From positions 17,110,001-17,174,000 of the forward strand of contig CM049308.1 of NCBI GenBank assembly GCA_026874595.1: DNA of 64,000 nt, in the 5' to 3' direction. Shown in pieces: positions 555 through 21,196 of the stretch; within the stretch, counting starts at the first letter, position 1, and each line of letters starts with the position of its first letter. The notes beneath the pieces were generated by a model. That model was not told where the DNA came from. It saw only the letters and a program-made list of their open reading frames with translations, and searched no databases. This stretch comes from Sipunculus nudus (taxonomy: Eukaryota > Annelida > Sipuncula > Golfingiida > Sipunculidae). Both the position numbers and the translations under genes were made by a program.

Positions 555-1042
555 ATGGTCCTTTCGTACGCTGTCTTGCTGTTAACCCTCGGTGCGACAT
601 GGCAAGGTATTTCATATATACTAGTTAATGCCTCCAACTGTAATTTGAGGATTCGGACATGGTCCAAAAAAGCGTTATTCTGCCCTGGGGGTTGTTGGTA
701 CACGTCCACTTGCCACCAAGCTCTCTCCATAGGCAGATTCTCTCCTGGTCGCTGCATGGTCCTCCAAGTACTTTCCTGTCGCATCCCTGTAATAAGTTTG
801 TTGTCAATAACATGTCCGTTCGTGGATATACATGAACATGAGTTTATACTAGGAGATATACAGGTGTAATGATATTCATCCAGCTCTAGCACTAAAGTGA
901 GGCTGCCTAATGTGACGTTATATGAATATGCACATGACATTTTACATGCAGGGGAACTTCTTACAATCCCCGCAATCTTATCAAACCATGTTAAGTTTAC
1001 ATCCTCCATGCAGTTTCTTGAAACCGCTATGGGGGCTGCCAT
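440..1042 (-). other. Unrecognised 200-codon open frame antisense to gene 1 exon 1
   Basis: The second longest stop-free frame in the window, long for such AT-rich DNA. It has a few cysteines (CKMSC, SINSCSC) and tryptophans but no domain or signal peptide I recognise. The gene 1 signal peptide exon lies opposite it. It may be a chance frame, a minus-strand exon, or a transposon remnant. A weak acceptor-like TTAATGGCAG occurs on the minus strand near its start. Confidence 0.2.
555..606 (+). CDS. Gene 1 exon 1: signal peptide
   Basis: The exon encodes MVLSYAVLLLTLGATWQ, a short N-terminus with a hydrophobic leucine-rich core, typical of a secretory signal. It ends in phase 1 at the donor GTATTT. 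An in-frame ATG 17 codons upstream (504) would bury the hydrophobic core, so 555 is preferred. A candidate acceptor (ATTGTTCCAG, ending at 540) precedes it, so the 5' UTR may begin in an exon further upstream. Confidence 0.75.

Positions 1043-21196: not shown

Follow-up and report, generated by a model that had tools for sequence, protein, structure and literature searches.

The window analysed here, by which we mean the whole 64,000-nucleotide stretch of Sipunculus nudus DNA (C3:17110001-17174000), contains a real 12-exon gene for a secreted cysteine-rich protein. The features of the locus, all on the forward strand, are as follows.

555-606, +: exon 1, signal peptide, 17 codons, ends in phase 1
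2158-2312, +: exon 2, N-terminal part of the C-type lectin-like domain (CTLD), contains an in-frame TAA
2190-2192, +: the in-frame TAA, codon 29, exon 2
3832-3944, +: exon 3, middle part of the CTLD, with the WIGL motif
4477-4607, +: exon 4, C-terminal part of the CTLD, without a full EPN/QPD or WND, with an extra cysteine
5027-5197, +: exon 5, TSP1 domain, phase 1-1
5877-6154, +: exon 6, first half of the VWD, with CTAGGDPH (predicted Asp-Pro self-cleavage)
6720-7021, +: exon 7, second half of the VWD, with CGLCGNYDG
13185-13432, +: exon 8, C8 domain (PF08742, 9.4e-8, exon scanned alone), collinear with FCGBP
15545-15750, +: exon 9, TIL domain (PF01826, 4.7e-7, exon scanned alone), collinear with FCGBP
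16541-16730, +: exon 10, TILa-like stretch and EGF (PF12947, 4.1e-9; PF12714 below cut-off)
17885-18046, +: exon 11, first CBM14, phase 1-1
20946-21196, +: exon 12, linker with a cysteine and Lys-Arg, second CBM14, stop codon
21401-21406, +: AATAAA, candidate polyadenylation signal, approximately 205 bp past the stop

We found that the 12 exons at 555-21196 splice in frame, that all 11 introns are GT-AG in the window sequence, and that the resulting coding sequence of 2259 nucleotides comprises 752 codons plus a stop codon. An earlier note on this DNA had described 12 exons giving one continuous frame except for a single stop, and this description held on all counts since the splice borders are regular, the phases close, and the only internal stop is the one TAA. 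When the spliced bases were shuffled, the mean number of stops was 34.5 and one stop or fewer was reached in 0 of 2000 shuffles; the remaining two frames of the spliced coding sequence contain 22 and 37 stops. Phase-1 introns are present at every module border, with exons 2-4, exon 5, exons 6-10, and exon 11 each forming a 1-1 unit. Because phase-1 borders allow any order of modules to close, phase closure is weak evidence by itself. The phase closure offered in the earlier note is real, but its strength as proof is not, as all borders are phase 1. Since phase closure alone cannot prove a single gene, independent evidence, in the form of paralogues, was needed. We also considered, and rejected, a further short exon between TIL and EGF at about 16067. 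An acceptor and a GT exist there, but on our reading they are out of step with the phase-0 junction, and in six paralogues the donor of TIL and the acceptor of TILa/EGF in that phase sit exactly as predicted.

Three further features were seen in the window, all on the reverse strand. A 205-amino-acid open frame (440-1057) runs antisense to exon 1 and part of intron 1 and has no Pfam match at E <= 1. A cysteine-rich open frame (48050-48436; GCPCCKKGR...) has no Pfam match at E <= 10. A trypsin-like exon (53852-54598; PF00089, 2.6e-8) carries GDCGAP where active trypsin-like proteases have GDSGGP, so that the nucleophile serine is replaced by cysteine, and it possibly encodes a protease homologue; a simple motif scan revealed no exon of the His type and a single, doubtful frame of the Asp type.

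A Pfam scan of the whole protein placed VWD (3.9e-24), Lectin_C (1.5e-15), TSP_1, EGF_3, and CBM_14 above their cut-offs, the last in two stretches (39.5 bits against a cut-off of 22.1). TILa was detected below its cut-off. C8 (9.4e-8) and TIL (4.7e-7) exceeded their cut-offs only when their own exons were scanned alone, and neither was listed in the whole-protein scan of the window copy at E <= 1. Whole-protein scans of the six alignment members at E <= 0.01 matched CBM_14 in all six, EGF_3 in five, TILa in four, C8 in one, and TIL in none. The assignment of C8 and TIL relies on scanning these exons of the window copy by themselves and on FCGBP (IgG Fc-binding protein), the closest PDB relative of the VWD-C8-TIL-E unit. 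FCGBP D assemblies aligned nearly end to end with this unit (query residues 3-393 of 408). Of the 734 positions in the family profile, the best FCGBP match spans 190-581 only. VWD, C8, and TIL are adjacent in that order, the arrangement of a D assembly. Overall, the exon structure and Pfam results bear out the proposal that signal peptide-CTLD-TSP1-VWD-C8-TIL-TILa/EGF-CBM14-CBM14 occur in one product.

We asked whether other loci repeat this arrangement by searching the genome (1.43 Gb, 153 contigs), in which the VWD exon has at least 125 matches (150 of 284 candidates were scored). Thirteen other VWD places were fetched. The module order of the window was repeated at 8 of these 13 places, which were hand-picked from the match list and not drawn at random. 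Exons 2-12 are present in the same order and on one strand at C3 29.50, 29.55, 54.68, 54.63, and 54.608 Mb and at C1 52.69 Mb. At C1 91.47 Mb exons 3-12 are present and no exon 2 was seen within 10 kb ahead of the VWD, and at C3 54.710 Mb exons 4-12 extend across two adjoining fetches, the fetched region starting there. In the C5 91.62 Mb copy, the CTLD is represented by exons 3-4 and TSP1 by a stretch of 16 residues; VWD, C8, and the final CBM14 are there too, and no TIL, EGF, or first CBM14 turned up. The C1 52.658 Mb copy contains exons 5-11, of which exons 8 and 11 are interrupted by stops and exon 9 appears to be broken in frame. Both look like decayed family members. Only exons 4-7 were seen in the 13 kb fetched at C1 91.314 Mb, and the places at C1 104.66 Mb (VWD-C8-TIL in 13 kb) and C3 24.39 Mb (VWD and TSP1) appear to encode proteins of a different sort.

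The splice sites of six paralogues were compared with those of the window by a script that imposed the window's phases and took the nearest site of that phase. With the phase so imposed, 63 of 65 acceptors and 59 of 59 donors were at the exact predicted position, the two off-place acceptors being those of exon 12 in C3_54.68 and C3_54.63. Internal stops are absent from all five complete paralogue models (exons 2-12). Upstream of each of these five models are exon-1 signal-peptide candidates that end in phase 1; the candidate has 17 codons in four models and is longer in C3_29.50, and the 17-codon exon is one of four candidates in C3_54.68 and one of two in C3_54.63. In sequence terms, the locus belongs to a paralogue family of several copies that have the same module order, and our data support that the window exons form one gene for one secreted protein with these modules in order. 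One could suspect that two adjacent genes were joined by mistake, the first consisting of CTLD-TSP1 or CTLD-TSP1-VWD and the second of the remaining modules, as intron 7 is 6163 bp long with 12 AATAAA strings inside and the all-phase-1 module borders make frame closure cheap. This alternative is contradicted by the paralogues: a join across intron 7 was rejected, as far as DNA evidence goes, on the 8 of 13 sampled places with the same order, and the VWD-to-C8 gap is only approximately 0.4 kb in C3_29.50 and 0.5 kb in C3_54.63. FCGBP is also collinear across intron 7, and we consider a wrong join extremely improbable.

The interval C3:54.60-54.71 Mb holds a duplicate cluster of at least four family members within approximately 105 kb on both strands, with C3_54.68 (+) and C3_54.710 (-) arranged tail to tail. 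Elsewhere in the genome, tblastn returned an identical VWD stretch at two distant places, C13:50.04 and 41.30 Mb; either another VWD gene has been duplicated or the duplication arose in assembly. A search of viral contigs for relatives gave three pattern matches, none of which was confirmed.

We next compared the window protein with published proteins. Its core order, CTLD-VWD-C8-TIL-EGF, is that of the flatworm adhesive protein ap1 (PMC8621496, PMC6745481), and this order and an adhesive role are described in the available text of four sources (PMC8621496, PMC6745481, PMC9229212, PMC6410801). According to these partial texts, the flatworm ap1 proteins (Mlig-ap1, Mile-ap1, and Tmed-ap1), which form the cohesive part of a temporary glue, share CTLD, VWD, C8, TIL, and EGF with the window protein. 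The likeness to ap1 is one of domain order. Tmed-ap1, as far as its available description goes, has a signal peptide in front and an EGF module between CTLD and VWD; between CTLD and VWD the window protein has TSP1. It also has one EGF where the same texts give approximately 7-20 for ap1 (the lowest counts come from transcripts said to be incomplete), is without the GRK-rich region described for Mlig-ap1, and adds two terminal CBM14 domains. The window protein therefore follows the ap1 order of CTLD, then VWD-C8-TIL, then EGF, without the long run of calcium-binding EGF domains. Having one EGF only, it is not filed as ap1 but only as working like ap1. The module combination had been put forward as an unfamiliar one. 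This stands for the TSP1 and the CBM14 pair, which are additions, but not for the core order, which is published in the ap1 texts available to us (PMC8621496, PMC6745481). In the literature searched, which left most subscription journals outside, we recognised no description of CTLD-TSP1-VWD-C8-TIL-EGF-CBM14-CBM14. The window protein is a known kind of protein in a combination of modules that we did not find in print.

Some molluscan proteins share parts of this architecture. In the available text of PMC7333891, the limpet pedal-mucus protein P-vulgata_1 combines VWD with CTLD and EGF in an adhesive mucus, and P-vulgata_2 combines VWD with EGF and one TSP1. They differ from the window protein in size (1854 and 2500 amino acids), in having several EGF domains and Kazal domains, and in that table 2 of that source gives no chitin-binding domain for either. 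Oyster zonadhesin-like IgGFc-binding proteins of the pediveliger stage, a set of six sequences of which five have consecutive gene numbers, are likewise cysteine-rich and contain VWD and EGF (PMC6337334, available text). Compared by description only, this set has no CTLD, TSP1, or CBM14 described in that text. A CBM14 pair is described neither for ap1 nor for the limpet mucus or oyster zonadhesin-like proteins in the portions available of the cited papers. FCGBP shares GDPH and the cysteine that holds the cut strand, and the human protein has 12 D assemblies (PMC10880436, available text) versus the single unit seen here with other modules on both sides.

We then examined motifs that bear on function across the seven copies aligned. 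All seven, like self-cleaving VWD domains, have C-x3-GDPH, its cysteine spaced as in FCGBP, and six have a Gln at +14 from GDPH (its identity with the FCGBP Gln is by spacing count). In FCGBP, GDPH undergoes self-cleavage with a disulfide holding the pieces, and mutation of the Gln 14 residues past GDPH partly affects cleavage, as reported in the text available from PMC10880436. In the linker before the second CBM14, Lys-Arg is present in all seven copies together with a cysteine, which is shifted in two. We can fairly infer chitin binding through the two CBM14 domains. Calcium-dependent sugar-binding C-type lectins contain an EPN or QPD motif and WND. At the EPN place of the CTLD, five of the seven copies read GSP and two read GEP (no N after), and at the WND place five read WKE and two read YKT or YKA. 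Since the full EPN/QPD and WND motifs are missing from all seven, classical calcium-dependent sugar binding is not expected, and the suggestion that the CTLD binds glycans found no support, though two copies keep the Glu-Pro of EPN. The usual CTLD pattern has six cysteines, and a seventh is present in every copy. VWF and gel-forming mucin polymers rely on several D assemblies and a C-terminal cystine knot for dimer and multimer formation. The window protein has one VWD stretch, and neither a second VWD nor a cystine-knot family was found in it by Pfam at E <= 1. CGLC, which the earlier note had read as a sign of multimerisation, is not supported as such: it is an ordinary VWD signature, common to the FCGBP repeats shown, and it reads CGMC in one of the seven copies. 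We therefore rejected CGLC as a special multimer sign.

Comparison of the window copy with the nearest copy found (C3_29.55) gave a dN of 0.122, a dS of 0.833, and a ratio of 0.147, with ratios by module from 0.07 (VWD) to 0.36 (C8). Our data indicate that the paralogue family is under purifying selection. Of the 60 cysteines in the window protein, 57 are Cys in each of the six paralogues with a residue there (C1_91.47 is without exon 2). Private amino-acid changes in the window copy numbered 43 v 33 with one outgroup (chi2 1.32) and 28 v 31 with a second (chi2 0.15). As there is no clear excess of private changes, the window copy seems to have been constrained like its sister until recently. 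The exon 2 stop is absent from all six paralogue exon 2 sequences seen, and a DNA search of the assembly with exon 2 returned one match, to the window itself (such searches can miss matches).

With its sequence as it stands, the window copy could not yield the full-length protein, and with the premature stop it may make nothing at all. In a family in which copies are both gained and lost, this one is probably a young null or an incipient pseudogene, unless the stop is an assembly error; a young null is plausible because decayed copies exist elsewhere in the family. We consider it possible, though short of probable, that the gene works and that the TAA reflects a mistake in assembly or base calling. 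This would fit a single stop in an otherwise unbroken frame of 752 codons, splice junctions intact at 11 of 11 places, and the lack of a clear excess of changes on the window copy, but no second haplotype copy of exon 2 was seen in the assembly (the search can miss one) and the two decayed-looking copies suggest that loss happens in this family. The window copy could also be used through skipping of exons 2-4, a 399-nucleotide phase 1-1 cassette whose omission leaves the terminal stop only. Joining exon 1 to exon 5 would open a frame of 619 residues for signal peptide-TSP1-VWD-C8-TIL-EGF-CBM14-CBM14, but any 1-1 cassette permits such a skip, its openness is no evidence of use, and we regard this as quite improbable.

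We hypothesize, with about even confidence, that a young null or misread window copy belongs to a family that supplies a chitin-anchored cohesive or cross-linking component of a secreted matrix. The matrix might be adhesive mucus or glue, a byssus, the periostracum, or a shell membrane, and the protein would work as ap1 does, with the addition of a tail that binds chitin. The protein would be secreted, and its VWD may cut itself at the Asp-Pro of GDPH, a disulfide holding the halves together. The CTLD-TSP1 part would then be tied to the chitin-binding half through disulfides only. The CBM14 domains would hold the protein on chitin, the CTLD and TSP1 might contact proteins or extracellular matrix rather than sugar in the classical calcium-dependent way, and at the conserved Lys-Arg site the last CBM14 may come loose or be set free. 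We infer cleavage, chitin binding, and place of action from sequence. The family might instead consist of secreted immune recognition proteins, in which duplicated and diverged CTLD and CBM14 domains would bind a variety of chitin- or glycan-bearing microbes and VWD-C8-TIL would act as a clotting or agglutinating scaffold. Immune families often have several clustered copies with decayed ones among them, and here there are several copies, partly clustered, with decayed copies, and lectin-type and chitin-binding domains occur in one protein. The full CTLD sugar-binding motifs are missing from seven of seven copies, however, and dN/dS is low in each module against the nearest copy, so that an immune role appears unlikely. 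A shell or periostracum matrix protein, with the CBM14 pair on the shell chitin scaffold and the VWD unit filling the organic matrix, also seems rather unlikely. The two CBM14 domains agree with it, and chitin-binding type 2 domains are named among the components of a basic calcification toolkit (PMC9781830, available text), but the core matches published adhesive and mucus proteins in the available texts of PMC8621496 and PMC7333891.

The VWD-C8-TIL toolkit is common to adhesive and mucus proteins of very different invertebrates, as stated in the available text of PMC8621496. Tentatively, and only as a possibility, we suggest a lineage-expanded family of chitin-anchored, ap1-like cohesive proteins, in which GDPH self-cleavage and a cut at Lys-Arg would produce disulfide-tied pieces that link chitin-bearing surfaces to a glue or mucus network, and in individual copies exons 2-4, the CTLD cassette, could freely decay or be skipped. 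If true, a family joining an ap1-like core to a chitin-binding tail would be a candidate for tying secretions to chitin, the settings in question being the shell membrane, periostracum, byssus, and gut lining. The paralogues in this one genome range from intact to decayed and form a series with a phase-1 intron at every module border.
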